NCBI GenBank assembly: GCA_025765595.1
Contig: JAIVFH010000054.1
Coordinates: 62,001-126,000, forward strand
Source of the DNA: Obelidium mucronatum
Taxonomy: Eukaryota > Chytridiomycota > Chytridiomycetes > Chytridiales > Chytriomycetaceae
Direction of reading: 5' to 3'
Length of the DNA stretch: 64,000 nt
The position numbers and the translations under genes are program-made. Shown in pieces: positions 17,937 to 51,781 of this stretch. The notes beneath the pieces are model-generated. The model was not told the DNA's origin and ran no database searches. It saw only the letters and a list, made by a program, of their open reading frames with translations. The stretch's first letter is position 1. Every line of letters begins with the position of its first letter.

Positions 17937-18032
17937 AGGAAGCCCCTCGAACTTCTACCTTTATTTTTCTTCCTTCTTTCTCCCAGATTCCGTAAATCCC
18001 TCAGTGAGCAAAGTAACAATAATAATAAATAA

Positions 18033-18034
<2 letters not shown>

Positions 18035-18068
<34 letters not shown>
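18035..18068 (+). repeat. 34-base poly(A) tract between gag and pol
   Basis: An uninterrupted run of 34 A, preceded by AATAATAATAAATAAAT, lies 99 bp after the gag stop and 21 bp before the pol ATG. Such a run could act as an internal polyadenylation relic or as a slippery site. Length is likely to vary between copies. Confidence 0.9.
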
Positions 18069-18071
<3 letters not shown>

Positions 18072-18089
18072 ACCAGAGAGATCGACGGA

Positions 18090-21000: not shown

Positions 21001-21694
21001 GGTTCAGTATTTGAACAACCTTAAGATATCCAGGACTCACAAATCGAGCCCCTTCAGTTTGATGTTCGCAAGACTAGCAAACCAATTGACGGATTATTCA
21101 TACAGCGAAGCAGCTACGATGTCCTTAGAAGAATTGCAAGCCCGCAGCGACAGGATGCATGATTTAGTATTTCCCACAATAGCAGAATCGACAAAGTACT
21201 ATAACACTTACATGAAATTAAAGTACGATAAGAAATTCCACGTCAAAAAGGAACTTTTCCCTATTGACTCATACGTGATGGCAACCACAGAGAGACGGAG
21301 CTCTAAGGATGAACCAAGATACGAGGGTCCTTATAAAGTCATGCGTCGGACTAAAGCAGGAACGTACGTACTGCTAGACAGAGACGGTCACTTGCTCCAC
21401 AGGGAATACTCACCACATCAGATGAAATTAATATCCGGAGACCTCTCAGACGACTGGTTCCTCACAGGGTCGGTGGCAGCAATTCTAGACCATGCCGAAG
21501 TGGATGGCGCTACGGTTTACTTGGTTCGCTGGGAAAACTTACCAAAGGAGGAAACGTCGTGGATACCGTACTCCGATTTCCAAGATACCGTTATGATAAC
21601 GAATTACCATAAACGGCTCCTTTCGAAGAAAAGGAAAGCGGTGGGAGCCACCGTCGATACCAAAGGGAAACGTCGAGCCACTAAGGAAGATTGA
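18090..21694 (+). CDS. pol: Pol of the chromovirus: protease, reverse transcriptase, RNase H, integrase, chromodomain
   Basis: The protease part (18090-18609) contains MIDDGAQVTRINKTW, with the DDG active site in place of the usual D[ST]G. It is joined by a 58-bp intron (18610-18667, GTAAAA...CTGTAG) to IGTDVAPQLNLGP, restoring the typical IGxD segment of retropepsins. Reverse transcriptase follows in frame 1 (YRVCLDLRRLN, IDLEGAYQQ, TIVYMDDICVHS), then RNase H (FRIACDASNLGVGAMLYQ, FVLETDHKAL). Near 20470 the frame moves by +1 within the integrase HHCC domain: HAQGHGAPEA is in frame 1 and WWEEGWVWPNM...CPECQ in frame 2. The integrase core (HVAIDCFSV, LQSDNGSEF, ERHVGMS) and a chromodomain (VYLVRWENLPKEETSWIPY) finish the protein. 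The break may be a mutation, a sequencing error or programmed frameshifting. Confidence 0.9.
18610..18667 (+). other. Intron inside retrotransposon pol
   Basis: Without removal of these 58 bases the protease ORF ends at an in-frame TAA (18642-18644). Removal joins ATA-G to GA-ACG and reads Ile-Gly-Thr-Asp, the conserved retropepsin C-terminal motif, and enters the reverse-transcriptase frame with no stop until the integrase. Donor GTAAAA, acceptor CTGTAG. An intron in a retrotransposon is unusual, because genomic RNA must escape splicing. Confidence 0.8.
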
Positions 21695-31416: not shown

Positions 31417-31653
31417 AATCCCTTGAATCACATGAGCACCTGTACCGCACTATCTTGTTGGTTTTTAATAAGTCAAGGTCCTAGACGTACATCTATCATA
31501 GCTCGTGCGGCAATTCTAATTGCTGGAAAGGGCATCCAAATACTGTTAATTTCAAAAAGAGTTCCAAACTCTGCCAACTCTTTTCATAAAGCTCTCTCTT
31601 TATTTTACACAAAATAATACAATGTCAGTTGCATTCACAGTAAACTTAAGATA

Positions 31654-31672
31654 ATACTGTTTAAAACAGTAT
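31654..31672. promoter_or_regulatory. Palindrome ATACTGTTTAAAACAGTAT at left side of the island
   Basis: Inverted repeat with 9-bp arms around one central base. Its half-site ATACTG is shared with the palindromes at 34.41, 43.91 and 46.07 kb. It lies 225 bp beyond the stop of the leftmost island gene. The rest of 31417-31897 is A+T-rich and shows no coding exon. Confidence 0.5.
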
Positions 31673-31897
31673 CCAGGTTTGGTGGTTCCTGGAATAAAAG
31701 AGCAATCTTTTAATTCGTATCCCCTGTTTGCTTTGTGAATGAACTACATAATTATACTTTATATTTATTAATGCAAAAGATACAACAGAAAGGAATACAA
31801 AAACAAAACACAAGCAGTTCAGATATCATGCAAAAATATACAAAAATAAGGAATAAAAGGCAGGAACAAGACACACAAACAACTCAACGACATATAG

Positions 31898-34438: not shown

Positions 34439-34831
34439 TAATCCAAATCACCAGCTAGTCACTTGTCACTGTACCCACCAAATCCGTTGAAGATGTTAAT
34501 ATTAGATTAACGTTGCATATTTACTTGCAAAAACACGCTATAAGTGTTATTACAAGGTGTGGGGGTGTGTAGAGTCGACACCAACCGCACACCGCGGTCA
34601 TTTAAAGATCATGTAAAGTCATTATTGGGGTCTACTTAAACTAAGAAACTCAATCCAAGAGTTTCCAGGAAGGTCCCTTGCTTGGGGGTGGGCAGCCTGG
34701 GTCGTGTATTTTCACACCCTGACCTCTCCTTCACACCCGAAGCCCGCCTGCACCAATTCAGTCCCAACTAATGTTGGAACCAGCCTATTATATTACTAGG
34801 TTGCATAACACGCTAAAAATGTACGCGCTGA

Positions 34832-34985
34832 TGCGTGAATATGTATTGCGACCACTTCAATGTGGCGCAACTTTGGCGCTCCTTGGCGCCTCACCTTGTC
34901 CTTTTGACTTGGTGTTTTAGAAGTAGGTAAACACGTAAGGTCGAAAGGGCGCCACACGGCGCCTTACGTTAGTAAAGATACGGCT
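34832..34985 (+). repeat. GGCGCC-rich intergenic block, left copy
   Basis: About 150 bp containing AACTTTGGCGCTCCTTGGCGCC, CCTTGTCCTTTT, ACACGTAAGGTC and GGGCGCCACACGGCGCC. It aligns in the same orientation with 45772-45930 at roughly 70% identity by eye. The wider gap 34439-35205 shows no coding exon and also holds ACACCGCGGTC at about 34589. The two copies bracket an 11-kb group of island genes. Confidence 0.65.
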
Positions 34986-35205
34986 CTGAGCACAACTTGA
35001 ACTTTTCTCTACATCTGCTTGCAGATAGCGCAAGAGAAATAGCTATTGTTTTTACCCATCTTCAAACATGCTATAACAAAACACCACCAACTCCACCCAA
35101 TAGAGTCAGTTACGTGATGGTGTTTGTAAAACTTAAAAAATAAACAAACAAAACACTGCGGCCCCAAGCCACCGCACCGCACTCAAGAAATCCACCGCAG
35201 ATCCA

Positions 35206-35787
35206 ATGCAATTTGACCTTACATACATTGCCCCTCATTTCTCTCAAAATAATCTACATGTAGTCAACCCTGGAGCCATACAAACTCCCACCCGCTTGCT
35301 CTTTGACTACACTCCTCCATCATACCATCGCCTTTCACCCAATCTCACCGATGTTGAAAAGAAATCTGTTATAGTTCATGGTGTGGTTACTCAAGCCCAC
35401 ACACAATTCCCTCGCCAGCTGCAAACCTGTTATGGTATACGCCATCTACTCTCTCTCACGGTCAATCCCATCTCAAACTACTCGGCCCCTCAGTTGGAAC
35501 AAATTGTTCAGGCCTTGACGTCTCCTAAAGGGCAAATGCCTGTCTTTCGAGGACAGTTAGAGTTTGGTAGGTGGTTTCGAGAGGGGCAGTTTGAAGCATT
35601 GCGTGTGGGAGATGCCTCCAATGGGTGGGAAAATATTCCTCAACTTGGACGCGAATTAAATCCGGGGGATGTTGTTGCAATAGCCTTTGGTATTACGTAC
35701 AATTTAAACACTTGTAAAGTTTCATTTATTCCATCATATGCTGTTTATTTGGGGCGTGCATATGTAGTACAGGGAGCGAGAGTTTGA
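35206..35787 (+). CDS. Uncharacterised intronless 193-residue island protein (gene b)
   Basis: A single ATG-to-TGA frame with no intron. The protein is not recognised. It is probably mostly beta strand, with alternating hydrophobic segments (SVIVHGVVTQ, DVVAIAFGITYNL, KVSFIPSYAVYLG), no signal peptide and no membrane helix. The NPGDVVAIAFG segment followed by short strands would be compatible with a small beta-barrel, but that is only a guess. It is the only plus-strand gene between gene a and the SET gene. Real coding is supported by length and by reasonable amino-acid composition in an A+T-rich setting. Confidence 0.5.
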   Translation: MQFDLTYIAPHFSQNNLHVVNPGAIQTPTRLLFDYTPPSYHRLSPNLTDVEKKSVIVHGVVTQAHTQFPRQLQTCYGIRHLLSLTVNPISNYSAPQLEQIVQALTSPKGQMPVFRGQLEFGRWFREGQFEALRVGDASNGWENIPQLGRELNPGDVVAIAFGITYNLNTCKVSFIPSYAVYLGRAYVVQGARV

Positions 35788-35934
35788 TTCATTATTGACT
35801 GCTCAATAAATGCTTATGGACCAATAAATGACTTAATGAAAGATATACAAAAATCCCCTAGGAGATGAAGTGGTTTCTGTTTTACAAGTGACTATGTGTG
35901 TCTTGTTATCAATAGCAATTGACCCCCTTAAACA

Positions 35935-36187
35935 AAATAGTCAATATTATTGTAAAGACTAATTACAATATTCCTGAAAGTTTCAGTCTTCCTGGAGTCG
36001 TGGTTGGTTTTTGATTAATCTGATTCCTCACACTATACGCAAACCCCCTATCGGCCTGCACCAAAAATCCTAGAATAAATGGCATTATTATTGTAAAGAC
36101 TAATTACAATATTCCTGAAAGTTTCAGTCTTCCTGGAGTCGCCGGAGTGGCCGTTGGTTGGTTTTTATTTAATTGATTCCTCAATTT
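35935..36187. repeat. Two tandem copies of a ~141-bp unit 3' of gene c
   Basis: ATTCCTGAAAGTTTCAGTCTTCCTGGAGT occurs at 35970 and 36111 with surrounding homology (TGTAAAGACTAATTACAAT before, GGTTGGTTTTT after). The same unit, diverged, occurs three times 3' of the paralogous gene d (41907-42310). Each array sits directly downstream of a protease-like gene stop codon. The rest of 35788-36304 has no coding exon. Confidence 0.85.
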
Positions 36188-36304
36188 ACAATGGTAAAAA
36201 TGCCTACATCACTGAATTGCAGTTTAGTTTTTAAAACCAGCCAAGGATATTGGCCAACACTTGGGTAGGATATAAGAAGAAATGATTGGGGCTTCTTTAT
36301 TTTT

Positions 36305-37647
36305 CTAAAGGAGTCGCAGTCGTTTTGAGTCCACTCCTGCCTCTGAATCCATGTCAGAATCCAAACTTCCATTGTCGTCACTGGATGAAGCTGATGATGA
36401 ATCAATGTCATCAGTTTCCCCTTCAGAAGAATCAGATGCATCAGACAATGATGACGATAAACTTTCCCCACAGTCATCCTCCGGAGAGTAGGCCTCCGAA
36501 GATGTATCGGCATCTTTTACTTGATGTTTCGCTGATTTCGCCCTTTCTGGGCGCCATTCCTCATCCTGTTCCTCTGCCCTTTCCTGCCAATATTCCTCAT
36601 CCTTTTCCAAAGATTCCTCTCTATATTCCACCTCCCGTTTCAAAGATTTCCCCTTTTCCTGGCTAGTTTCTACATCTTGCTCTGATATCAATATAACAAA
36701 GTCATCACACTGACCACCGTCTACAACTGATTCTTCTTTGCTATTTTCCCCCAATCTCAAATCATCTCCATCAGAATCACTGAAAGAAGCACCCACTGCC
36801 ATGTCCTTTTGGCTCTTACCTGTCTCTCCCTTACCTGTCTCTCCCATTCCACCCTTCAACGCCCCCTTCAAAAATCTTTCGGATTTTGACCCCTTCACCA
36901 AGTCGCCATTATATGGCACACGCATGACTCGCTCCGTCAAACAGCGTGGCATACCTCCCCTGTCGGGCAAGGCAATATACTGTCGAATGAAATCAAGACA
37001 TCGAAGGGCGCAATCTAATTGTACATTATTTTAGATGCACTTTGTGTGGATATTCTTATTTGAAGAAATAAATACCTGATTCTCCGTGTTGGTCGCCATT
37101 CACAATATGAATATTGTCGAAAAAAGATTTTCGTAAATGTGTAACTAGCAAATGTGTTTGTGTTGGCCAAATATCAAAGTCTTTAAGGGGCTGATAAAAG
37201 ACGACACTTTGATGAGCTGTGCCGTGGTGGAATACAAGAACTTGGAAATGAGTTGGCGCGTCGAGGGTATTTTTAACTCTGTAAAATTATGTAAGGGGGA
37301 GTATGGTTAACCCCATTAAAAGACAAGGGGCCGTAATACCTTTTGTGTTCAGACGCGACCAAGACAATCAACATTCCTTGTTCCTGAACCAACTTTTGAA
37401 GTGTTGCTACTTCTCTCTGAGTTGGTGCAAATCCATTAGCCCATACTTGGAAGTCTGGGTCATTGGCATAAGATTTCTTTTGCTTGTTGTCCTTGAATAC
37501 AAGTGACTTTTTGTAGAAGAAGGCAGTCTCCGGCTCCAGAAGCAGCTCTTGAAACTGATCAAGTGTTAAGCCTTCATTGGTGTTTACTTTGGAAAGGTCT
37601 CGCGTCTTGCCCAGAGCCGCAAGGTTGAATGGTTGGAGCATGGCCAT
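36305..37647 (-). CDS. Ulp1/C48-like cysteine protease-type protein with acidic tail (gene c)
   Basis: Three exons: about 37340-37647, 37090-37280 and 36305-37012. Exon 1 has LDQFQELLLEPETAFFYKK and ends EQGMLIVLVASEHK. The joined core reads THFQVLVFHH ... VVFYQPLKDFD ... IHIVNGDQHGES-DCALRCLDFIRQY. The order His, then a YxPL strand, then Gln, then Asp-Cys followed by a hydrophobic helix is that of Ulp1/adenain-type (C48-like) proteases. The usual acidic residue of the DSL motif is Gln here, so activity is uncertain. The last 200 residues are acidic Ser/Asp/Glu-rich with repeated EEYW/EEW units. Gene d is a paralogue with the same core. The family call rests on motif order seen by eye. Confidence 0.6.
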
Positions 37648-37720
37648 TTTTCAAATTGATTTTTTACAAATTAAATATTTTTTTGATTGAAAAACACTAA
37701 GATTGCATCATGTTTATATC

Positions 37721-37990
37721 CACCGCGGCCGTAATAAAATCAAGTAAAATCACTTTTGGGATTTATAAACATGTAGAAACACGATCCAAGTGTTGTTGGG
37801 AGGTTCCCGTCGAGTGGAGGGTTAAAACTGGGTTTTTTTTTACTTTGACCGCAAGACATCACCGCGGCCGTAATAAAATCAAGTAAAATCACTTTTGGGA
37901 TTTATACACATGTAGAAACACGATCCAAGTGTTGTTGGGAGGTTCCCGTTGCGTTGGGGGTTAAAGTTGGTTTTTTTTTTATTTTCAACT
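37721..37990. repeat. Pair of ~139-bp direct repeats containing CACCGCGG, upstream of gene c
   Basis: The unit starts CACCGCGGCCGTAATAAAAT at 37721 and again at 37860, and includes AACACGATCCAAGTGTTGTT and GGGAGGTTCCCGT followed by a T-rich end. The two copies are almost identical. They fill the gap between the start of gene c and the stop of gene e. The ACCGCGG core recurs in other island gaps (about 34591, 41471 and 41755). Confidence 0.85.
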
Positions 37991-38037
37991 TATTAACAAA
38001 TGAGCAACTGGTACGGCGGCTTGGTAAATCGCCCCTT

Positions 38038-39461
38038 CTACATAACCACTAGATCATGCGAGCTACAAATCACCTCTGCGCGATTCCAGTTATCCCCTGC
38101 GTTTATGTGGGCGCTCAACCTCTCCTTGAACTTTTGCAAGTAACAATATTCCATATTTTCGCACAAGATAACAACCACCCCTCTTGATGTTGCTTCCAAA
38201 AGTTCAAGGTGACTCATATTACCCGTGATGTACAATTGGGCGGGATACCATCGAGTCAAGACACTATAACCGCTCCCTGCACAAACAGCAATATTGATAA
38301 TGTGTTTTTCAGAAGCCGTCGTTCCTGGAGGTAGCACTAGACGAACACGGGCTAGGGGAACTCTCTTCTTGAGGCGCATGACCAAGTTTTCCACTGTTTT
38401 GGTTTGTTCGAGTGAAAAGTAGGCTCCTGTACCAGGGTGTACCTTTCGATCCATGCGATAGTGATAGGTCCCATCAAGACCAAGGATAGGACGATACTTA
38501 TCGCGGATTTCAACTGTGAGACCTGAGGCAATCCAATAGTTGATTCCACCCGAACACGTCTCCAGGGCATTGCGAGGGGTCACTATTGAGATGCCATTGG
38601 CAGCACACAGAAGCAACATGTGCTGAGTTTGATCCGCAGTGGTGATGCCCTGCAGTGCAGGTAGGTTTGGGGGGTGGTAGGCCATTATGACTCCAATTAA
38701 GGGGTCGTTGATGGCCTCTTGAACTGTCTTCATGGTAAGATCCAGAACAAGAAGAACCTGTGCCAATTGATTAGTGCTTGATCATCACTGCGACACAACG
38801 ATTTACCTTTGATGCATCAGTGCGTGGCGTGGGAGTCTCCAGCACTATTACAACAGTCTTGGGGTTTTCAGTAAATCCATCGTGGGCAATGCGTTCAAAG
38901 AGCGCATGGTTGACCCTTTCCAAGAGATTCAATTCCTCAGGCACAGGTCCATGCCTTTGCTTATCTTCGTCCTCTGAGGAGTAAACCTCGTTCTCTTGGT
39001 AAATGGCATCATCCTCTTCCCTTTCCCTCTGTGCCTTTTTCCACCGCTCAATGTACGGTCGAGGATCATGATAAGGATCGTAACGTCCGATCATTGCGCT
39101 TTTGGGCCATTTGTTCCTTGGGTATTTATCCAGAATGCCTAATCTACGAGCTAGAGAAAGTTTAGTTATTGTTACATTCAAAAGAATGTAAGGGGCCACC
39201 TTGATCTAACAGGAAGTCATCCATGCTTCTATGGTTATTCAAGCTTCTAGGCGGTTTGCTTTTAGGGTGTTTATCGTTAAAATCGCCTGGGGAGGTGGTT
39301 GCTGTGGATGGTATTGTTCCCCTTGGATCGCTACTGCTGCCGGATTCACTGCTGCTGGATTCACCACAATGTAAGGGATTGGCACTTCCCACGGGCTGGC
39401 TGGATCCAGAAGCGTCGCAACCGCTAGCAGGTTTGCTAAGATTGTTTGGCTGTTGTGTCAT
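38038..39461 (-). CDS. NIF3-like protein with disordered N-terminus (gene e)
   Basis: Three exons: about 39201-39461, 38815-39150 and 38038-38760. The first 90 residues are Ser/Pro-rich, the next 60 charged. From about residue 150 it follows the NIF3 fold: IVLETPTPRTDASKVLLVLDL, IMAYHPPNLP, GISIVTPRNALETCSGGINYW, then after the middle insert INIAVCAGSGYSVL, QLYITGNMSHLELLEATSRGVVVIL. In typical NIF3 proteins a dimetal site uses two His in HHPP, a His/Asp in the HTxxD segment, and His/Glu near the end. Here these read YHPP, RNALE, and CENMEYC, so several ligands are lost. NIF3 proteins are widespread housekeeping proteins of unclear role, which makes a cargo copy in this island unusual. Confidence 0.75.
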
Positions 39462-40193
39462 TTAAGGCCCAAATTATAAATGAGATTTTGGAATTTTTTA
39501 AATTAAAAAAATAATTTCGATAAAAGGAAATGAGATCGAAAAATAAATCACTTTGTTTTGTTCTAAATCAACAAATTCTGCCGACATTAGGGGGTTTCAA
39601 AGTTAGATTTTTTTCAAACAAAAAAAGCTGTTTCTTTGATGTTAAAACTCTCTAAAAAAATCGAGTTTTTCTGGCTGGGGGTTTCAAAGATAATCCCCAG
39701 CTTTTCATGGACCGCCAATGCCCTACCAATGCCCCGCCAATGCCCTGGCTTTCTTCAACTTGGCTCCTGAAACATAAGTACCATTTAAAGCGGCAGAACC
39801 AGTAATAGGTTTGAGTTTGGCTGTGATTTCCAGCCAGGAAACGATTGCGTTTTATTGAACAGGAGTTTTGAGCTTTGCGTATGGTTTAACGTTTGTAGCC
39901 GCATTCGTTGTCTTAGTTGCAGCCTGAGGAATGAGGGCACAACCCTTTGGCATAGCTGCTAGAAAAAAATGACAGAAAGAAAAAAACGGGAGAAAAAAGC
40001 ATCTCCTGAAGCATCTCAGGAGATGCTTTTTTGAGAAAAAAACGATTTCTTTTGAGAAAAAAATGAACAAAAGAAATGAATTTTTTTTGTAACTTTGAAA
40101 CCCCCTATTATTGGTTGTTTGATGAACTTGTGGTTTTTTTTTCTTTTTGTTTGACCAAAAAAAGTCCCCAAAAAAAATTCAGGAAGTGAAAAT
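39462..40193. other. Divergent gap between gene e and the SET gene
   Basis: This 730-bp A+T-rich gap holds a short motif run (GCCAATGCCCT...CCAATGCCC) near 39715-39745 and the long hairpin at 39993-40032. No credible exon was found. It would contain both promoters. Confidence 0.5.
39993..40032. repeat. 17-bp perfect inverted repeat (hairpin) upstream of the SET gene
   Basis: AAAAAAGCATCTCCTGA, a 6-base loop AGCATC, then TCAGGAGATGCTTTTTT. The arms are perfectly complementary over 17 bp, and the right arm ends in six T. It could be a terminator-like or processed hairpin RNA, or a short element relic. It starts 200 bp upstream of the SET-gene ATG. Confidence 0.8.
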
Positions 40194-41141
40194 ATGGACA
40201 ACAACGAGACATTCACCTATGGCACCAAGCAGCGCATTGAGATTGCCGTCGCCAACATCATCCAGGATCAGAGACCGAAAGGGGTCAAATCCAAAGACTG
40301 GCCACGCATCAAGGCGGCATGGGCAAAGAAGACGGGAGCCAAGAAGCCAAAAAAACAACCAGTCCCTAAACCAATCACCTACTGCTTCACCGCTACTCCA
40401 ACTCCTTGTGGAAAAGTTGCTTACATGTCAGGAAGATGCCGAGAGTGCTACAATCGCCACTACTACATGGAGCAGTCGGTGAAAGTCATTGCTGCCTTCA
40501 CTGGTGAGACCAACGTCTCAAAGTTGCTGCGTGCCGAATCATGGATCCATTCTGGGAACCCGTTAATGTATAGTTTCCGTGGAAAGTGCTCAACAGATGG
40601 ATGCAGGGATATGTGCGTGTTGACTCACCCATTGTGCTCAAGTTGCTCATCGGATCAACTGGGTTTGGGAGTGGTTGGATCGCTGATCCCTGGCGGTGGT
40701 TTTGGGTTGGTTGCCACCAAGGACTTTGAGGCAAAACAACGTCTTGGTGTGACTTATGGAAGGCGCCTCCTTTCTAGAAAGGAGAAGGATGACATTGAGG
40801 CTTCAGAGGACCCCCTGCAGCAAGCACGCGTCGCCTATTTGATGGAGCTGTCAAAGGACACATTTATTGATGGATTTGGGGAAGACTCTGGGGTACTGCG
40901 ATTCATCAACAATGCTCCCAATGCAAGCCTGGTGAATTGCCGTTTTGTTGTGGACAGAGTCAAAAAAACAGTGTCAGTGGAAACCATCCGAAAAGTTGCT
41001 GCTGGCTGTGAGTTCTTTTTGGTGTACAGGTTTAATTCAAACGGAAATGGAGTTTACTGGAATCAAATCCACTCCGACTCTGCAGAAAGACTTGCTCAAC
41101 GCAAGCAGATTATTGCAGCAATGAAGCATGTTGATTTGTGA
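40194..41141 (+). CDS. SET-domain protein with N-terminal Cys-rich module (gene f)
   Basis: A single-exon 315-residue protein. Residues about 60-150 contain two Cys clusters (PTPCGKVAYMSGRCRECYNRHYY and CSTDGCRDMCVLTHPLCSSC) that likely bind zinc. The SET fold follows: GGGFGLVATKDFEAKQRLGVTYG, then DSGVLRFINNAPNASLVNCRFVV corresponding to the RFINHxCxPN motif, and GCEFFLVYRF corresponding to the GEELxxDY motif. The motif residues are altered (Asn for His, Arg for Asp), but the fold signature is clear. SET proteins methylate lysines, often of histone H3. Its neighbour 2.5 kb away encodes an H3-tail-like sequence. Activity is uncertain because of the altered motifs. Confidence 0.75.
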   Translation: MDNNETFTYGTKQRIEIAVANIIQDQRPKGVKSKDWPRIKAAWAKKTGAKKPKKQPVPKPITYCFTATPTPCGKVAYMSGRCRECYNRHYYMEQSVKVIAAFTGETNVSKLLRAESWIHSGNPLMYSFRGKCSTDGCRDMCVLTHPLCSSCSSDQLGLGVVGSLIPGGGFGLVATKDFEAKQRLGVTYGRRLLSRKEKDDIEASEDPLQQARVAYLMELSKDTFIDGFGEDSGVLRFINNAPNASLVNCRFVVDRVKKTVSVETIRKVAAGCEFFLVYRFNSNGNGVYWNQIHSDSAERLAQRKQIIAAMKHVDL

Positions 41142-41906
41142 TTTATTTGTTTGTTGGTTTTTGGTGGAATAAAAGATCTTAGTTTGTTGCACCACATTGC
41201 CTAGCGCAAAGTTTAGAAGCCACTTTTTAAATGGTGCCAGACAACAATATTCTGTGTTTTGACGGAGTGAGTGGACGCGATTCTAAAAGCGTTTGGGTCC
41301 CTGGACCTTCACTACTACAAATGTTATAAATACTGAAGAGAGAGCCCTGGAACTTTGCAAATAGCTCCAAAGAATGTAATAAACAGCATTGGTGGAGGTT
41401 TCGTGAATTTTTGTGCTTACCGTTGTTGGGTTGTTGTGTTGAAACTTTGGGCCAAACTAATTTCACCATCACCGCGGTGGTACAATCACAAATTCTGAGT
41501 GGAAAACACTTCTATAAGCGTTTAAAAGTGTTTCTAAAAGGTGGGCATGGGTTTCCCTTTGTTGGAATCTGTTTTGGTGAAATCTTGCACCTCTCCGCTA
41601 CAACTCACAAACAGACTACCACCATGGGCCCAACTCTCAAAACCATGCAAACCAATCCAAAGCAACCTTGAAAATCTATTGGTAAGCGTTACAAAGATTT
41701 TTGTGCTTGCCTAAAATCTTTGGGTGAGTTTTACTCTCAACAGTATTACCGCCACCGCGGCCCTAAAATCACAGAAAGACGCTTGATCTAGCATTAATAG
41801 ATACGTAATAACAAAAATATGGTCTCAGATTCCTTGTCCCTGTGCCACAAGGCTGGCAATAATCATAAAACAAGTCAAACCCTCTCCAACAACCAATGAC
41901 TCAACC
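41142..41906. other. Gap between SET gene and 140-bp repeats
   Basis: No convincing gene. The CACCGCGG core appears at 41471 and 41755, each followed by similar words (ACAATCACAAATTCTGAG and CTAAAATCACAGAAAGACG). The segments therefore look like diverged copies of the intergenic repeat found upstream of gene c. Confidence 0.45.
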
Positions 41907-42310
41907 GAAAAATCCCATAATAAATGTCAAAACTATATTAAAAACCAAGTTAAATATTCCTGAAAGTTTCAGGCTTCCTGGAGTGGCCGTTGGTTTTGTT
42001 TTAATTGATTCCTGCACAGTGTACACAAGCCCCTATCGGCCTGCTCGAAAAATCCCATAATAAATGTCAAAACTATATTAAAAACCAAGTTAAATATTCC
42101 TGAAAGTTTCAGGCTTCCTGGAGTGGCCGTTGGTTTTGTTTTAATTGATTCCTGCACAGTGTACACAAGCCCCTATCGGCCTGCACGAAAAATCCCATAA
42201 TAAATGTCAAAACTATATTAAAAACCAAGTTAAATATTCCTGAAAGTTTCAGGCTTCCTGGAGTGGCCGTTGGTTTTGTTTTAATTGATTCCTGCACAGT
42301 GAAAACAAGG
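41907..42310. repeat. Three tandem copies of a 140-bp unit 3' of gene d
   Basis: ATTCCTGAAAGTTTCAGGCTTCCTGGAGTGGCCGTTGG occurs at 41956, 42096 and 42236; the copies are nearly identical. They create spurious minus-strand ORFs with identical peptides. The related array 3' of gene c suggests that gene and repeat were duplicated together. Confidence 0.92.
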
Positions 42311-42526
42311 GATTGCCCAACAACCCCCCACCTTCGACATCCTTTATTAAAAAATGCGTTAACATTCAGTAAATCTCTTTTTTCATTACTTCTTTTTATT
42401 GTTTGAATCTCATTCATCCAACAAGTTATTCTTAGGTACAACGGTAAACAATGCCAAAATCACTGAAATGCGGAAGGATTTTATATCCTTTAAGACATCC
42501 ATTGCTGCCACTTAGTTGAAGACCAC

Positions 42527-43734
42527 TCACTCTTCAACTGGCTCTTCGTCAGATGTGTAATTCAACGACGTATCACTTTCGTAGCTGAGATCATCTGGAT
42601 CCTCAAGACTAGCATGCTTTTCTAACACCATTGGTTGGATAGCGTTGTCAAATGCTTCCCACACAGTTTTATATCCAGCAGCGTCTTGAAATTTGGCAAA
42701 TTTCTGTCTTGCCTTCGTTGGGTATTCCCCGTTTATGAAGGCCCGGTCAAATTTCCTCGCTTGGCACCTGGGGAATCCAGCATTGGAGGGTAGCAATGTA
42801 TAGGAACGAATGAAGTCCAAGCAGTGATATGAGCAGTCATGAGTGGTAGTTTGTCTTCCGTTTGCTACAAACAAGTTGCGAGTAAACTTGTCATTCAGTC
42901 CAGCAAGAAGAGGGACGGCGGGCCTAGGCCAGTGAAATCCCGAGAAATGTGGCTGAAAGAAGAGAACAGATTGTTCCTCAACTACAACCACAACGGAATG
43001 GCTTGGGGAAATCTTCTTACCGCTATAATACAAAATGAATTACGCCTTTATAACCAATTACCAATAACCAAACTCACTTACTTTTTCTTGGTCTGAGATA
43101 CCAAATGGACAATGGCCATACCCAACTCTTCCACTTTTTCCATGACTTGTTTGCAGTATTCGGAAGTTGCATAACAGCAGCCAGCCCATTCCCTTTTGGA
43201 TTCCTCGTTCATGCGTAAGAATTCTCGCTTAGCTTGATCTGCTTTTCCATACCCAAGAGCCTTGCCCATAACGTATTTGGAGGCATGTGGTGCAAGTCGT
43301 GTCTCAAACCCATTCACAGGCAGCCCTCCCTTGTAAGGGCGGGATTCCGGAATATTACATGCTTCTTTAAGGTCAAGGAATCTATACACGGGTATGCGTG
43401 GCATTGCTGAGGTTGGGTTGATGGGGTTATTGGCTCCAAGCGAGCAGCCATGATCAATGAGCAATTTCATGGCATCAATGGCATGCATGACGGTTTCAAC
43501 GTTATAGGGCCCCCCCGCAAAGTCATTGGATGCTATTAGCCCACGTTAGATGTGGATGGTTTGACCCCTTAAATACGTACCTGCAAGAGCTACCAAATCC
43601 GAGATTGCAGCACCATCGGGTCCTGATACAACAGAATCGGCAGGAGGCTTTCTTCTCCTTTTCCTTGCTACAAGTTGTTTCTTAGGCGTTTTGCCTCCTG
43701 TGCTTTTTCCTGCTGTTTGCCTGGTGCGTGCCAT
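42527..43734 (-). CDS. Histone H3-tail-like N-terminus fused to Ulp1/C48-like protease domain (gene d)
   Basis: Three exons: about 43572-43734, 43082-43524 and 42527-43021; introns GTACGT...AATAG and GTAAGT...TATAG. The first residues are ARTRQTAGKSTGGKTPKKQL, which match 17 of the first 21 residues of histone H3 (counting Met). Lys9, Ser10, Thr11, Lys14 and Lys18 are kept; Lys4 and Arg17 are conservatively swapped (Arg, Lys) and Arg8 is Gly. A basic patch (RKRRRKPP) follows, but there is no histone fold. The middle part (ETVMHAIDAMKLLIDHG ... EELGMAIVHLVSQTKK) and the core (PSHSVVVVVEE, LFFQP, NGRQTTTHDCSYHCLDFIRSY) parallel gene c: His, Gln and Cys of a C48-like protease. The tail is acidic. 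It is probably nuclear and may act on or imitate chromatin. Confidence 0.75.
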
Positions 43735-43908
43735 TTTAACAAATTTAAAACCATTTTTTTTAAAATCCCATAAAAATGGGTTTGCATCGTGTGAACATAA
43801 TAATTGTGCACTAGTTGTAGTAATACACTCACCGAAAACACGTGAGGATGGTATTGCGGCCTTTCGCGATACACCTTGCCTTCTTTTATTTTTTGAAGAA
43901 TTTTATCC

Positions 43909-43925
43909 CATACTGTGACAGTATG
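43909..43925. promoter_or_regulatory. Perfect palindrome CATACTGTGACAGTATG upstream of gene d
   Basis: Arms of 8 bp around one base, about 175 bp upstream of the gene d start. It shares the CATACTG-N3-CAGTATG layout with 46070-46086 and, less perfectly, 34415-34430. Probably a binding site for a dimeric regulator. Confidence 0.6.
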
Positions 43926-44021
43926 CAGTGCAGAAATGCAAAACACTGGCATGTCAGTAGCTAGTAGTACCTACATACCCTGAAAAAATCAGTTGCCCAT
44001 TTTCCAATTTTTTATTGTAAA

Positions 44022-45518
44022 TTATTTGAAAAGCGCCATTTGAGCAATACCAAACTCAAACAAGTGATCTTCGCTATGTCTAATCTTTAAATTCTGCAAC
44101 ACTCCAAAAAAATTTGAAACTACAGAGCCCTTGTCTTGTTCATTCAAAGCGTCCCAGCACATTAGGTACCCACCAAACGATCCAAACTCTAGCGCCCTGA
44201 AAGATTTGCTTCGGTGATCCCAAACAATGTCCAATCGGCAAAAATCCAGATGGGTCAGAGTATAGGCAGAATACTTTTTGAGTTTGTGAATAACTTTTGA
44301 ACAGAAATCAAGAGCATCCTGCATGCGATCAAGATCCTGGTCCTTTGTTGGCTCAGAGTGCATGCATCCAGTGAGTGCATCAATATAGAGTTTTGCCAAG
44401 TGGGTTGCGTGGTGGGATTCCCCTTTTGCTTTGGTTGCCGCTACTAGTGCCATGTATTGGAACTCTTCTTGAATGAAATAGACCTTGAGCTCAGACAACG
44501 CCACGGATTCAACGTAATCCTGACATATCCAAACATTAGCCAGCGGAGTTTGGAGTGAATTTGCCTTGATGTATTCCTTCAATTTGGGATTGGATTTAGG
44601 TTTGACTAACTGATTCTTGGCTTCGCTGGACCAATTGCGCTTGATGATTTTGCCCTTAAAGTGGCCAAATCCTTTAGCCAAGACTGCGCTTGTGTTCAGC
44701 AGCTCCGTTTCCAGGATCAGACCTTTGAGTATTGAATGGAGAACAACCTTGTCACAGTCTGCGCGAATGCTGTCTGGTTCGGGAAACAGGATCACGTTGT
44801 TTTCTAATCCAAAGAGCTTCAAATGGCGGAGAAATTCGTCCATTTCTTCGGCCCTTGTGATGTCCTGCACCATTTGCGCCGAGATGTTGGGAACCAGGAA
44901 AATATCCAAGGTAAGCGGTATCCTTTCAAGAAGCGACTTGAATGACCAAGTTGGTCCACTTGTTGTTCGAAGTTCCTTCAATTCTTCCCAGGACACAAAA
45001 TACAGGTCCACAAGTGCAGGTCTTTGGTTCCTGAGGCGCGCAAGCATATCAAGCTCCTCACGGATGCACTGCTCCGCATCCACAAAGTCGGGGTTGTTGG
45101 CAATTGGTTTGTTGAAGATGGTGGTCGGATTAGATGACAGAAACTTTGCAGACTCTGCAGTTGGGTGTTTAGTGAAGTAGATGTTGGCATCATCTCCAGC
45201 TCCAAATAAGGGATGAGGCAGAAACAGGATCACCAATCGTTTGGGGGTGTATTGCTTGGCCAGCCAAGCAGGGGCATTTGTAAAGTTGTGGCAGTGGTTT
45301 TTAATACGAAGAGCGTCAGACGTTTTCCTCCCAGGTACTTCAAGGGCCAAACAGCACTGCCACTCAAGCTGGGCTGACTTTTGGCACGAATTACAGCGGC
45401 GAGTTTTTAGACTGATGTCACCGTCTTGGCAAGCCGGATTGGAGCAGATCCACTCAAAGTTGGCGGCAGGTACAGGTGCTAGCGGCTTGTGGTTCATTTC
45501 AAAAGAGTGAATGCACAA
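44022..45518 (-). CDS. ATP-grasp-like enzyme with N-terminal zinc module (gene g)
   Basis: An intronless 498-residue protein. The N-terminus has CSNPACQDGD...RRCNSCQ and CC, a probable zinc ribbon. The C-terminal half follows the ATP-grasp pattern: a DK pair (RADCDKVVLHSIL), a Lys strand (GKIIKRNW), VWICQDYVESVALSELKVYFI resembling the QExI...DIRVFVI segment, and LDFCRLDIVWDHRSKSFRALEFGSFGG, resembling the final RxDxx...EINxxGG metal and ATP site. ATP-grasp enzymes ligate a carboxylate to an amine or thiol, for example in peptide or glutamate tailing. The substrate cannot be predicted. An internal Met (MNHKPLAPVP) could be the start. Unusually long and intronless for this island. Confidence 0.6.
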   Translation of the reverse strand: MCIHSFEMNHKPLAPVPAANFEWICSNPACQDGDISLKTRRCNSCQKSAQLEWQCCLALEVPGRKTSDALRIKNHCHNFTNAPAWLAKQYTPKRLVILFLPHPLFGAGDDANIYFTKHPTAESAKFLSSNPTTIFNKPIANNPDFVDAEQCIREELDMLARLRNQRPALVDLYFVSWEELKELRTTSGPTWSFKSLLERIPLTLDIFLVPNISAQMVQDITRAEEMDEFLRHLKLFGLENNVILFPEPDSIRADCDKVVLHSILKGLILETELLNTSAVLAKGFGHFKGKIIKRNWSSEAKNQLVKPKSNPKLKEYIKANSLQTPLANVWICQDYVESVALSELKVYFIQEEFQYMALVAATKAKGESHHATHLAKLYIDALTGCMHSEPTKDQDLDRMQDALDFCSKVIHKLKKYSAYTLTHLDFCRLDIVWDHRSKSFRALEFGSFGGYLMCWDALNEQDKGSVVSNFFGVLQNLKIRHSEDHLFEFGIAQMALFK

Positions 45519-45559
45519 ATGCTGGAGATTTTTATAGTCTCAACATTGAACAATACAAA

Positions 45560-45597
45560 TCAGTCAGTCAGTCAGTCAGTCAGTCAGTCAGTCAGTC
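45560..45597. repeat. (TCAG)n microsatellite
   Basis: About nine units of TCAG in the region upstream of gene g. Confidence 0.95.
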
Positions 45598-45620
45598 GGT
45601 ATAGTAGTTTTTTGATCGTT

Positions 45621-45636
45621 GGGGGGGGGGGGGGGG
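45621..45636. repeat. Run of 16 G
   Basis: A homopolymer G tract immediately after the TCAG array; assembly length may be unreliable. Confidence 0.95.
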
Positions 45637-45771
45637 TTATCTTGTAACGCTCATAACTCCGGCGCCCCTTGGCGCCTTGTGACGCTCTTGGTGTATGAGA
45701 TAGTTTCAATATGTTTCTATTGATGCGCGAAGAGGAGCTGCGTGGGATCTGAGTGGAATGTGGCCTGTTGG

Positions 45772-45930
45772 TGTGTGCATACACATTGTTCCACTTTAGC
45801 ATGATATAACTTTGGCGCCCCTTGGCGCCCCGCCTTGTCCTTTTAACACAGTGTTCTTTACATGGTTATACACGTAATGTCTAAAAGGCGCCATGGGGCA
45901 CCTTATTTTACTAAAGATACACACCTAAAT
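45772..45930 (+). repeat. GGCGCC-rich intergenic block, right copy
   Basis: Contains AACTTTGGCGCCCCTTGGCGCC, GCCTTGTCCTTTT, ACACGTAATGTC and AGGCGCCATGGGGC, aligned with 34832-34985 in the same orientation. A further GGCGCCCCTTGGCGCC occurs at about 45661. It may be a promoter block for gene g or one end of a duplicated segment. Confidence 0.65.
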
Positions 45931-46064
45931 GGTCTGTGAGTGCAGACAAAAACAAACCTTGCCTGGAGCCAAAACTGTCAGCAGCAAAATTACCATAAAT
46001 TATTATTAATTTAAAGAGCCTACAACACATTGTATTGAAGCTGGTTAGCCCCTTTGGATTGAAT

Positions 46065-46091
46065 AATCTCATACTGCCGCAGTATGAGATT
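46065..46091. promoter_or_regulatory. 27-bp perfect palindrome upstream of gene h
   Basis: AATCTCATACTGC, one central C, GCAGTATGAGATT: 13-bp arms with no mismatch. It is related to the sites at 34.41 and 43.91 kb. Just after it ATGAGATTTAATACTTCC resembles the first codons of gene a (MRFN-KK), here closed by a stop. This indicates a shared ancestral 5' region. The remainder of 45931-47453 has no firm exon. Confidence 0.7.
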
Positions 46092-47176
46092 TAATACTTC
46101 CAAAAAATAATTTTAAACTCGCTGGCCACCACCACCCCACCACCAACACAAGCTATACAACCAAGGACACTTGAGCAGTATCAAACGACTCTGTGGCATG
46201 TGTGTTCAATCAACAGAATGCCTGGAACCAGTCAAGGCCTGGAGATCGCTGGGGTTGACAATCCTGACTTGACAGGAAGGCATGCATTACTGGACTGGCC
46301 TGAGCAAGCCACCATCTGATGTAAGTCCTTATTTTCAAAACATCCTGACTTGCTGCAGCGCTCCTGTATTAACAAGTGATTGTATTCAATAGCCGCTGCT
46401 TGGGTCGCTCATGTTAAAACCAGCCAACCATCCAGCACCAAAACACGCTATTTTCTGGCTCAAATGGACCTATTTAAATGTAAGAAATATCCTCATTTAA
46501 TTTATTTGATTTTGATATGTGTTGGAGTGCTAATTATTCATGATTGTTAAGTCTCCAACACCTGCTTCAAAAACACGAAAAATACAACAAAGGGAAGCAA
46601 AATACCAACCAGGTACTTGAATACTATGCTGAATTTTGGAGCAGGAGACTAATGTCCAGTTTGATTTTATCAGGAAGGAATCCCTGTGGTGACTCTGAAA
46701 GTATAATCTGGCAGGCCTGCAAGCACCCAAACTGCCGCCAACACATCCATTGAGGCTTCGTATTATTCAAGGTAATATGGGCTAGTTTTACTTTTATTTT
46801 CGACAGTGGATCACTGAAAGTTTCTCAATTAGGCTGTTTTACTGTGTTTACCAAAACTGTTGCTCTGCTATTTATTGTTGGTCCATCCTTGTGGGTATGA
46901 GGCAGACAGGATAGCAGAGCTGTGTTGGTCTGTCTGGGGGAGGAGGGGGCTGTAATATTTGAGCCCACCTGTGCCTTTGTCAAGCCAGGTTCTGAAGCCT
47001 TGGCCTCCATGCAATGCAGATGTCCTCACACGCGCTGCATTGACAACCAGTATGTTGAGAATTCTCACGGCTGGTGGTGGCTTTTGGTATCTGTTTGGTT
47101 TGGTGTGAATCCCTTGATTGGCTACACACTCGAAACTTTTATGTTTCCATGATTTGTTCTCTTGAATGAATCTCTC

Positions 47177-47217
47177 CTTTCTCTCTCTCTCTCTCACTCA
47201 CCCCTCTCTCTCACTTC

Positions 47218-47252
<35 letters not shown>

Positions 47253-47280
47253 TCTCTCTCTCACTTCTCACTCTCACTCG
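47177..47280. repeat. (CT)n-rich simple repeat
   Basis: About 100 bp of CT repeats interrupted by CAC/TTCT words. It gives false Leu/Ser-rich ORFs. It probably lies in a UTR or intron of gene h. Confidence 0.9.
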
Positions 47281-47453
47281 ATTGGCTTTTAATCGCATTG
47301 GTTCCCACCTCATGTTACCAAGTGTCCCCAAACGGGGGCATGTAGGTTTAACTACTGCCATGTCTCTAATCAGAGTCATAGCAGAAGCAATGGGCTTTGT
47401 GGAGAACAATAAGGAGAAAATTTTCTCCTTCATCAAAAATCCATTGTCTTGAA

Positions 47454-50400
47454 ATGTGCAAAAAAGTAGCTAAAAACTGTGACGCAAGTCTATCACCCAC
47501 CCCTGAAATTGGAACACTTTCAACAAGCATGCAGCGCCTCCATAGCAAGCCCAAGGCCAACCAAGTGAGTACTGGATCCTTGATTTTCTCTGTTATAGGC
47601 CTTGTGCACTCACTAACATTTGATGCGCACCAACAGATGCCAGCCCCTTTGATGACAACCGCCAACACTCCTTGCTTGCAAGATGATCGAGGATTGCAAA
47701 CCATGGCACTTCTTGACTGTCTGTGGCCATTCAAGTGGGGTTGTTGCCAGACACCCTGCCCCTTGTCTCCAAAAACAAAGCTTACAACAACACATGAACA
47801 GTCGATGCCAGCAATGCAACCGTTGCTTCAAGAACATGACACAGTCATGTCTGTTCCTGTGGTATGTGACTTGAAGGTTTTGGTTTTGATTGGGTGTGTT
47901 TGTTAATTTGTTCACACACACTTCAACATTTTCCAAAGTCCTCCTCCACCTCCAAACAGGAGAAAGTCTTGAGACATGCTGCTTGCATCAAGTCCAAAGT
48001 CCATGTCCGGCTTTTCAACGGGACAACTCTGGCCCTGCAGGTGGGCCCTGGTACTACTGTTGGTGATGCAAGACGGATGATTTATTGCAAGACTGGGGTG
48101 CCCACGAAACAAACATATCTATTATATCAATCCAAAGTACTAAGAGACTGTTTGGTGCTGTCAGGTACCTTTTTTATTTTTTTGTTATCTTTTACATTTT
48201 CCACACAAGTGACCCTAACCCATACTACCATTTTACAGATTGTGGAGTCAATTTTCTCTCACAGCTCACCTTATCGTCGCATTTGCCTGGAGGCAGCACC
48301 AGGAGGAAAGCTCAAAGACCAGTTGATGGTGGAGGTCCTTCTAATCCACCTCCAGTTGTTCCGCAACCGGTTGTTGATGCCCCCATTCCTCCACCCTCCT
48401 CCTCATCTACAACCAAGCAACCAATGTCGCGCAAAGGAAAAGAAAGAGCCATTGACATTGTACAGGAGGCCACCACCCAACCACCACCACCACTGCCAAA
48501 ACGCGCGAGGGCTCAACAGAAGGAGGACTCAAACAAAAAATCAAAGGTAAAAAAATGTTCACTTTTTTACCATCAATCACATCACGTGCTTATTTTTTTT
48601 CTTACCTCTAGGCCAATTCTGACATACCTGCCCTTCCTGCTGGCTCCTTGATTGTAAATGCCAATGGAACTGTAGCCCCTGCTCCCTCCCATCTTGTCCA
48701 ACGATATGCTAGAAAATACGACATCTTTGTCCGTTCAGGGGGGTCGCAGCAGAAATGTCAAGACTTTTTAGCCCATCTTGACACCAGTGCTGAAGTATTC
48801 AACAACTTGGAAACTTGCCTTGCCGAGTTTCTCCAAGTTTTCCAGTTTGGGCACCCTGCCAAAAACGCGCTGATTCAAATCAAGGAGGTGATCCACCATC
48901 AGCAGCAGGTCAACATTGACACCGACTCTCTGGACATTGAGCGTGGTGTGATGGTGCCAACCACCAAGTTTGAAGTGGTGCCCTGTCTGTACAAGTGCCC
49001 CCAAGGCTTTCATGATGGAATTGACCAGTGTTCCTGCTTTACTGGAGATTGGAGCTGGGCAATCAACAACGCATGTCTTGACATGCTACAAGCCAACAGG
49101 GACATCAGCCACTGCACTCTTCAACAGGCTATTGGACACCCCCAAGCCAATTACCCAAGAGTTGTGTTCATGCTATCGCTCAACCGATACCTTTATTGTC
49201 CAAAGTTACTGGCGGACTATGGTATTTGCGCACAACCACTCTTGGGGTCTTCTTCCAAAGCTTGTATGGAAGCCACTCATCAAGCCATGTATGCCATCAC
49301 CCTTAGATTAATTTCGAAAGCTGGAAACTACCCCAATCAGCAGGAGCCTGGGTCCAATACTCCTGAAATTTCGAAACAACTGGTTGCTGGATCGGATGCT
49401 AGCCAGTGTGTCACCAACAAGGGAATCATGAAGATTCTTGGGAATGTTGTCAAAGTGGGGGAGCACTCCATCTTTTCAATCAACCACCCTGCTACAGCTC
49501 CCCACAACTTTGAGTCAGGGACATTCCCAACTTGGAATAAACGCGGTGGAGGCGGCACAGCAAACTGGATTCTGGATCCACCAAAGGCTCCTATGCGGGA
49601 CAGAGACTTGAAGTTGCTGGACTTTCTGGTCTTGACCCAAATCAAAGCTACTGTTGGTTGTCTGACTGGAGTGGACCTATCTGATGAAGAATGGTCTACA
49701 GCCTATGAGTACCTCAAGAATCAAGATGCCGCTCGTGCTTTTGGACCCTGGTTGGCAAGACGAAGCAACTACCAGACAGCAAATTTGTACCAACTGTCTC
49801 TGGCTGATGCGGTGGTTAGACTTGGGGCTAAACAGCAGTATAATCCAAAGGGGAGCATCAAGTTTACAACAGCCAAGATTGTGGCTTCTTCTGAGTGGGT
49901 GGATGCTGCAAGACTCTTGAATACTCCCATTCACCACTTCAGCGACGACAATCAGCACAACTTGGCCATTGAGACTGATGCTTTGCTTAATGTGGCTCTT
50001 GTGGATACTGAAGATGTGGAGATGGCGGACGCAATTCTGGAGACTTTGCCTGCGGACCCTGTGGCCATGGAATTAGATCCTCCAGTTCTTGAGGATGATC
50101 CCAATGGAAATCCCTGCCAGCTTGTGGCTGATAATCAACCAGTCTCTGCAGCTTCCTTCAGTCAAGCCTGCACTTTGTTCAGTGAGCTCTCTCTACTGGC
50201 CAAACTGCTTGGGATTGGCTTGTCACTGGTCAACAAGAAGTTAATCAGCCGGTCCTACAAGATCCAGCGTGAGGGAATTCATGTTGTGTTCCAGCGAGCT
50301 ATGGATAAACTGACTGAGTTGGACAAGTCTCCAGGAACGTGGCATCCAGGAACAGTCATGTACAGAATCTATCCCAAAGATCCTGACTTGGCCAATCCAA

Positions 50401-51631
50401 CAAAGTCAATCAGTGTTTCAGAGGTTGCTGTTGTTTTCAAAAGAAGAGCTGACAAATCCAAGAGCATCTCAAAGGTAAGCATTATTCTTAACCATCTCAT
50501 TTGTTGAGTATTGGCCAATTAAATCAATCTATTTTCCCCCAAAAGCTGGTTCCCCTCTTTCGTGTCTTGGAGTCCTCCACATTCAGTCCAAGTACCACCA
50601 ACCCCACTGTTGCTCAAGTCAAGGTCCAAACCATCCACTCCCTCTTTTACAAAAGTCACGTGTATTTGAGGGATTTCCAAAGAGCCACAACATGCTGTTT
50701 TGACTTGGGCCAAGAATCTTTGTCAAAACTACACACAATCAGCAAGCCGCTGCCAACCCGTACTGAAATGCTCGACCCCAAGTCAAAGACATGGGATGCA
50801 ATGTCTTTGCGAAAGTGGGGGCTGGATAGGGCCATTGCAGCCGTTGCCCCACAGACTATGACAACAGTTGATGTTCCCCTTAATTCATTTCTTGGGAATA
50901 CCTACAGAGACAACTTCAACTTGCTTTTCAAAAAGTTGCTCAAATCTCATCCCTCAATGGCTGGAATTGGCACACCATCTAGCAAGCTACTCATGGGGGC
51001 TCTCGACTCGTCATTTGGAAGAGGGCACATCTGGAGGGCAAGAACGTCTGCTGAATCCATAACCAAGCTGGACCTTGAAGATTTAACTGTTGTCAATCAG
51101 AGGTGGCTTGGAATTGTGTATTCATCCAATATTATCCCAGACTCTCCACCAGGCAACCAGTCCACTTTGACTATGGACTTTTCTCTGAGCTCAACTGTCC
51201 AGGAAATACCACCTGACGATACTCCAAATTTCCACTTCAAGTTCCAAAATCACACTGTTAATGGACTGGAGATTCAGATGCAAGACAATGTATCTGCAGG
51301 AAAGCAGCAAAACATTCAACCCCTGGTTCTGTCCTTTTCAAGTCAAGGTCTTTATTCTTTCAAATTTGCTCCTGGTTATCGAGGGAGGCACATGGCTGGT
51401 AAGGCCAATCCTTCAATACATGGTCAAGCTGGTGCAATTCCAGCACTCTGGAATCAGCTAGAAAACAACCCATTTGCAGCTCTTTTTGACCATATTGATG
51501 GTTTGGTCCAAGGGCATGGGCGGGTTGCTGAAGATGAAGAAGTGGTCAGTGATGGGGTCAAAGATGGGGAGGATGTTATCGAGGAGGTTGCTGAGGATGA
51601 TGTCCAAGATGATGTGACAAAGAAGGATTGA
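47454..51631 (+). CDS. Large island protein with ubiquitin-like domain and Gly-Gly junction (gene h)
   Basis: At least five exons. The 5' end is uncertain; 47454 is the first in-frame ATG of the exon ending at 47565. The exon 47641-47861 is Cys/His-rich in one frame (PCLQKQSLQQHMNSRCQQC, zinc-finger-like), but splice phases fit another frame better. Next comes a ubiquitin-like domain (KVHVRLFNGTTLALQVGPG, GVPTKQTYLLYQSKVLRD), continued after an intron to LTLSSHLPGG, in register with the end of ubiquitin (Gly-Gly). It is followed by STRRK and a Pro-rich, basic linker. The remaining 1000 residues (48606-51631, intron about 50476-50544) include CPQGFHDGIDQCSCFTGDWSW and are not recognised. The C-terminus is acidic. 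It lies directly upstream of the Fanzor-like gene, same strand. Confidence 0.55.
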
Positions 51632-51781
51632 TGTAAAGAAGGCAAACGAAGAGGAGAGGATTAGAATGGTAAATCTTAATCACAAGTCTGTTACTGGAAG
51701 CAAAACTTAACCAAACCATATTAGACTACCAGACGAATCCTCAAAATCAGCAAAAGCAAAAGCAAAAGAAAACCAAAAGAG

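Follow-up and report, generated by a model that had tools for sequence, protein, structure and literature searches.

Proteins that imitate the N-terminal tail of histone H3 are known from viruses and from host genes (PMC10208167). The H3-like N-terminus of PAF15 (PCLAF) is read by the PHD finger of UHRF1 as if it were H3 (PMC7060239), and the AKER tail of Shugoshin Sgo1 is bound by Survivin (PMC9253516). H3 coding sequence has been captured by DNA transposons of Dothideomycetes, most copies being truncated; the captured copies are inactivated by repeat-induced point mutation in P. fijiensis and five relatives, while many are potentially active in Pyrenophora tritici-repentis (PMC6710886). The VANC proteins of Arabidopsis VANDAL elements are anti-silencing proteins that act on DNA motifs, and their targets are often tandem repeats (PMC5735166). 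Here we describe a 64,000-nucleotide stretch from the genome of the aquatic chytrid fungus Obelidium mucronatum (Chytridiomycota; contig JAIVFH010000054.1, here C54, positions 62001-126000; hereafter the window), in which a 25,085-bp element bounded by terminal inverted repeats (TIRs) carries a gene whose product, as judged from DNA and protein comparisons, has ~30 residues of host histone H3 fused to its N-terminus.

Like PAF15, the element protein is a non-histone protein with an H3-like N-terminus that would be free, and the Pfam PAF model matches the tail of one form of the protein (type B, below) under cut-off (E 0.037). PAF15 resembles H3 more weakly; unlike the element protein, it is a host protein with no CE-clan domain and is not carried by a transposon, and its binding has been shown whereas that of the element tail is predicted. 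In Sgo1, as proposed here, H3-like residues that follow the removed Met form a docking site, but these are four residues of a host gene against ~20-30 in the element. Viral mimics are likewise parasite proteins with an H3 tail motif (PMC10208167), but the motifs described in that source are short, such as the C-terminal ARSK of NS1, whereas the element carries a whole, host-derived N-terminal tail in a DNA transposon. The Dothideomycetes elements, as far as described, are also fungal DNA transposons with host H3 sequence; here the tail alone is present, fused to another protein and kept. VANC is comparable as a transposon-borne, non-transposase protein aimed at silencing, a role proposed below for the element protein, and the element also contains tandem repeats; in contrast, VANC works on DNA motifs, and no H3 tail is described for it in the portion of PMC5735166 drawn on here. 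H3 capture by fungal transposons and H3 mimicry are already known; no transposon-encoded H3-tail mimic, nor a transposon protein with an H3 tail kept by selection, was recognised in the openly licensed literature searched.

The tailed gene and the element are located in the window as follows.

42527..43734, minus strand: tailed gene ('gene d', here type A), 366 amino acids (aa) in the spliced model; exons 43734-43581, 43532-43082 and 43022-42527
43672..43731, minus strand: H3-like tail, residues 1-20 after Met, from translation and comparison with H3
42761..43362, minus strand: predicted CE-clan (Ulp1/SENP/adenain-like) protease fold, residues 109-289, with an intron inside, from an AlphaFold2 model and VIA-align 2
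31541..56625, no strand: mobile element, 25,085 bp, from the pair of inverted repeats in the window
31541..31560, plus strand: left TIR, TACTGTTAATTTCAAAAAGA, from the pair search and genome-wide sites
56606..56625, minus strand: right TIR, two mismatches, from the pair search and genome-wide sites

The spliced type A model is identical to NCBI protein P0003 (366 aa, Obelidium mucronatum), which starts at the tail Met. Exon 1 begins MARTRQTAGKSTGGKTPKKQL, and window 43583-43734 on the minus strand translates to MARTRQTAGKSTGGKTPKKQLVARKRRRKPPADSVVSGPDGAAISDLVAL. The original prediction had identified a stretch at 43572..43734, corresponding to exon 1 plus 9 bases of the 48-bp intron that follows it, as a protein start that copies the H3 tail and is followed by no histone fold. 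This description was confirmed. Sixteen of the 20 residues after Met are identical to H3 (17/21 including Met), with K9, S10, K14 and K18 as in H3 and with the differences K4R, R8G, A15T and R17K. No core-histone family in Pfam was found for types A, B and C, the PAF histone-like match being the only one, and the AlphaFold2 model of the type A protein shows another fold.

The first 50 residues were searched against the whole 48.3-Mb, 694-contig assembly, which gave 22 places, nine of them (at E 6.2e-6) being H3 genes with a canonical tail. Besides H3 and fragments, the tail was found together with this protein family at ten loci on nine contigs, and a sister gene without the tail lies in the same element.

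Type A copies: C54 (the window), C35 and C75
Type B copies: C118, C149 and C67, intact; C36, stop-bearing
Type C copies: C35 and C53, the C53 frame being shifted in the part read
Type D copy: C14, stop-bearing
36305..37647, minus strand: type E sister gene, 406 aa, no H3 tail, 100% identical to NCBI P0125

In all eight copies checked (three A, three B and two C) the tail begins at the first in-frame ATG past an upstream stop, and AAA precedes ATGG at the tail start in the six A/B copies. In type B one exon holds the tail and the first 186 residues, so that splicing is unnecessary to join tail and body. The NCBI type C protein P0002 (476 aa) also includes the tail; it differs at one splice site from the 472-aa model used here.

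Between 16 and 19 of the 20 tail residues match H3 in the six intact A/B copies. When the type B tail was compared with the PDB sequence set, H3 was matched at E 1.2e-8 and the match stopped near residue 36. Matches were also found at the DNA level: the type B tail (C118) aligned with the host gene H3_L007 over 70 nt at 87% identity (E 3.8e-18), and the type A tail (C75) aligned with H3 over 74 nt at 76% identity (E 2.3e-5). At these values a chance resemblance is excluded, and the DNA matches indicate that the tail is a piece of host H3 coding sequence. The type B match to H3 starts within 10 nt of the ATG, with none further upstream, while an upstream piece is common to types A and B.

Substitutions were counted between chosen representatives of each type over codons 2-21 unless stated. 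Relative to H3_L007, nonsynonymous and synonymous differences number 1 and 8 in B (C118), 7.5 and 11.5 in A (C54), and 13.5 and 15.5 in C (C35). Ser10 is encoded by AGC in A, C and D copies, whereas type B, like the H3 genes aligned, uses TCC or TCT. The codons have diverged widely while the residues persist. In a strict but rough test, which credited the mimic branch with only half of the synonymous change, p was 3.2e-5 for B, 0.006 for A (C54), 0.0006 for A (C75), 0.03 (D) and 0.29 (C). When A (C54) is compared with B (C118), 15/20 tail residues and 96/308 body residues are identical; no other 20-residue window of the protein is as well conserved as the tail, which also shows less nonsynonymous change than the body (p 3e-4). 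This difference was absent for A-C (p 0.86) and B-C (p 0.21). It is possible that B tails have been partly gene-converted from H3; the synonymous divergence, 8 of ~15.5 sites, speaks against a very recent conversion.

Conservation was uneven along the tail. Across all ten loci, with the stop-bearing copies counted, Q5, A7, S10, T11, G12, G13, P16 and L20 are kept in 10/10 and A1, R2, T3 and A15 in 9/10, followed by K18 (8/10), K9 and K14 (7/10), T6 and Q19 (6/10), R17 (5/10) and K4 and R8 (4/10). K9, K14 and K18 are present in all six intact A/B copies. R8 is Gly in all three A copies, giving AGKS, and ARKS is found in the three intact B copies alone. By residue comparison the C and D tails have diverged away from H3. 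The expectation that homologues conserve the tail thus held for types A and B and failed for C and D, which lack K9 and K14, and for the tail-less type E.

The protease-like domain placed behind the tail by the original prediction was recovered by structure comparison and by no sequence method. VIA-align 2 matched the AlphaFold2 model of the type A protein, a modest model (mean pLDDT, the predicted local distance difference test, of 52), to the CE-clan fold, which the body is accordingly modelled to have. The family alignment gives a candidate site at H210, Q225, Q259 and D264-C265; H210, Q259 and C265 are kept in types A, B, C and E, and type E shares the H/Q/Q-x4-DC pattern. The predicted fold and the His-Gln-Cys positions are those of Ulp1/SENP, adenain, XopD and other CE-clan proteases. 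Unlike these, the element protein has an H3 tail in front, no Pfam Peptidase_C48 match and an incomplete His, Asp, Gln and Cys catalytic set, with Q225 at the Asp position when aligned by eye. A PF02902 search of the genome matched other genes, the tailed family not among them; a PDB profile search gave no protease match for the body; and a profile-profile comparison (hhalign) gave Prob 0.6, with an alignment that included a provisional splice of type E, as one of the Pfam scans also did. The NCBIfam YopT-type match (E 0.13) lies far under cut-off. A recognisable Peptidase_C48 gene (C194:42493-43616, 56.9 bits with neighbours) was observed beside DNA similar to window 34306-34849, which suggests that relatives of the element may carry a true Ulp1-type protease.

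At the sensitivity of the searches made, the protein family is known only from Obelidium mucronatum. A body-only profile, with the 8000 candidates sharing most words scored, found three proteins, all from Obelidium, and a type E search gave 3 matches among 579 candidates, again from Obelidium alone. None of 111 pattern matches in viral contigs was a relative. Longer proteins were also searched with the tail; 3015/3022 candidates matched at E<=10, the 120 matches listed carry histone domains, and no further H3-tail fusion could be discerned against this background.

The tailed gene had been assigned to a putative mobile element, and inverted repeats were found at both ends of a repeated unit. 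Only 0.01 matches to such a pair are expected by chance in the window, and TACTGTTAATTTCAAAAAGA with <=2 mismatches occurs at 52 sites genome-wide compared with 2 for a reversed control pattern. On C67 a repeat pair at 13046 and 32482 encloses the type B gene. A single repeat end at a fitting place was found on each of C35, C75, C118 and C149, and the C75, C118 and C149 contigs stop before the other end. Five further right ends (C45, C89, C35, C3 and C657) have a common terminus and four different flanks, those of C35 and C657 being similar. The window copy has its repeat 1.35-1.48 kb closer in than C136, C75 and C6 do, which points to a deletion at its left end. TA is present at both ends of the complete copies on C54 and C67 and may be target or part of the repeat. 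No transposase family was found in the scanned open frames of the element (Pfam, NCBIfam and PHROGs).

An N-terminal Met before Ala is normally removed. In the element protein this would leave a free A1-R2-T3 end, as in H3, together with a K9-S10-T11-G12-G13-K14-x-P16 segment, and host readers and modifiers of the H3 tail would be predicted to bind the mimic as if it were H3. Binding may tether the protease-like domain to H3-reading complexes, or occupy them, which could weaken the silencing of the element or its ubiquitin-dependent chromatin marking; the opposition to silencing is proposed by analogy with VANC, and a motif match by itself may mislead, as the ORF8 dispute illustrates (PMC10833455). 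That the H3-tailed, CE-clan-fold protein of a TIR element docks on or occupies host H3 readers or modifiers and weakens silencing is, in our estimate, evenly balanced between right and wrong. The fuller proposal, that selfish DNA with a host-derived H3 N-terminus and a ubiquitin-like-protease fold, selected in two diverged lineages, docks on or starves H3-tail readers and resists silencing, and is the first known case, is held slightly more tentatively. Selection appears to have preserved the tail, a sign that the element may engage the host chromatin machinery directly. K4 and R8 vary while A1/R2/T3, Q5, A7, S10-G13 and P16 hardly do, so that a PHD-type N-terminal reader or a K14-centred writer appears likelier as a partner than an H3K9 methyltransferase or HP1. 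In fission yeast, H3K14 ubiquitylation is linked to H3K9 methylation via Clr4 (PMC12407891, preprint), and the presence of both K14 and a predicted CE-clan fold in the element protein may be set beside that case.

The tail could instead act purely as a decoy or substrate trap that receives acetylation, methylation or ubiquitylation instead of H3 (at K14, for example, from a Clr4/Cul4-type ligase) and titrates the writer, with the fold as a carrier; in fission yeast, the H3 tail enters the Clr4 pocket when K14 is to be ubiquitylated (PMC12407891, preprint). K9, K14 and K18 in every intact A/B copy and the Gln at the aligned protease Asp position would fit, but titration of abundant H3 would demand high expression, and this account is considered unlikely. 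It is further weakened by the loss in type A of R8, which H3K9 enzymes require. Reading by H3K9 enzymes or HP1 requires the ARK motif, and the same loss bears on the original prediction that the tail recruits or titrates H3K9 methyltransferase or HP1-type proteins. K9-S10 is retained in A and B and the host genome has two SUV39-class Pre-SET loci, and such reading is possible for type B with its three intact ARKS copies; it is poorly compatible with AGKS in 3/3 type A copies and with C and D, which lack K9, and as a general explanation we regard it as improbable. A general basic N-terminus for nuclear import or for contact with DNA, not specific to any reader, was judged no less improbable: the basic run RKRRRK follows the type A tail, but type B has none, the best kept positions are mostly A, T, Q, S, G, P and L, and while R2 is kept in 9/10 loci the other basic positions are kept in 4-8/10.

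Several observations weigh against a histone-like role. The NCBI model of the C149 type B copy (P0004) starts at an inner Met, downstream of the tail, although this Met is Leu in the C118 copy, which argues against the inner start. The recent type A copies on C54 and C75 differ by 6 nonsynonymous and 0 synonymous changes over codons 2-31, compared with 11.5 and 19.5 in the body (tail-body contrast p 0.007). With the loss of K9 and K14 from C and D and a type E without the tail, these data could indicate a relic, an H3 start captured by chance as a ready start codon and leader. Five of the six C54-C75 changes fall past residue 20; on the codon counts, residues 1-20 form a constrained core in A and B and the stretch 21-31 is free. 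This constraint, and the tail being the best conserved window between A and B, are difficult to reconcile with a relic, which is also unlikely. Adaptive change at residues 21-31 (within window 43731-43642) is possible. An assembly or annotation artefact might be suspected from copies near contig ends (C53, C75 and C118), but with ten loci on nine contigs, diverged synonymous codons, and P0002 and P0003 both including the tail, it is scarcely credible.

The remaining features of the element are given below.

38041..38781, minus strand: NIF3-like open frame (Pfam DUF34_NIF3, E 3.8e-29)
40194..41141, plus strand: SET-domain gene (Pfam SET, E 1.1e-8; nearest solved sequences KMT5A/SETD8, PDB sequence match E 7.5e-4)
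41906..42309, no strand: 2.9 tandem copies of a 140-bp repeat on the 3' side of the type A gene; similar units are found 3' to the type B and type E genes
44022..45497, minus strand: 491-aa orphan gene (open frame), immediately upstream of the tailed gene
47999..48148, plus strand: ubiquitin-like domain (Pfam ubiquitin, 28.1 bits, cut-off 25.4)
48612..51631, plus strand: large orphan open frames; part of the DNA recurs in type B elements

The SET gene, noted in the original prediction as a neighbour of the tailed gene, is indeed adjacent and convergent with it, 1.4 kb away. Copies were found on C54, C75, C35, C31, C41 and C16 and none on type B contigs; the window copy has an intact frame, that on C75 contains a stop and that on C35 is broken in two, and the C31 relative (84%) is unbroken. 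All three type A contigs thus have the gene, but with no copy found on type B contigs and with the broken C75 and C35 frames, the tail evidently can do without it. The nearest NCBIfam model, AnkI/LegAS4, scored 21.5 bits, far under cut-off.

Units related to the 140-bp repeat (78-93%) were seen at window 36009-36144 and L021 4095-4261, 3' of type E/type B genes. On C149, ~283-bp units lie in tandem directly upstream of the type B gene (L022 5019-7990), with fewer on C118 and C67. The 491-aa orphan had no Pfam, NCBIfam or PHROGs family above cut-off or at E<0.1, and the frames at 48612..51631 gave no convincing family (Pfam for both frames; NCBIfam and PHROGs for 48612-50507). The ubiquitin-like domain stands at the start of the large orphan region, its DNA being common to type A and B elements; matches over 80 or 150 bases were listed in these comparisons between copies. 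The gene next to the right end (52086-56570) has a Cys-rich stretch ending RDPKSA, weakly similar to the zinc ribbon of TnpB/Fanzor (PF07282 under cut-off at 55788-56570, E 0.037), and, by eye, a DPG-RT motif. Evidence for a Fanzor/TnpB identity is weak, and a search of its own genome gave no match at E<=1. Outside the element, Ty3-like retroelement frames lie at window 16578-21694 (reverse transcriptase and integrase by eye) with a chromodomain-like end.

In the C35 element copy, the SET gene has a divergent H3 variant immediately upstream (C35:36273-36629; L025 ~5492-6150); this variant has two extra residues after the first long helix and is CENP-A-like by eye. The genome H3 search listed no divergent variant on C54 or C75. 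Genome-wide, 39 stretches match the H3 fold (some being exons of one gene), many at 39-67% identity, and low-identity stretches on C55, C209, C15, C45, C20, C62 and others give the appearance of a spread of H3 variants. A search for a UHRF1-like SRA domain gave no match, but its control also matched nowhere and absence is not established.

If the proposed reading is true, a near-complete, host-derived H3 tail in a DNA transposon extends histone mimicry to selfish DNA. The natural variants A, B, C and D would then show which H3 positions a parasite must keep, and the system would open a direct test of transposon against chromatin silencing in early-diverging fungi.
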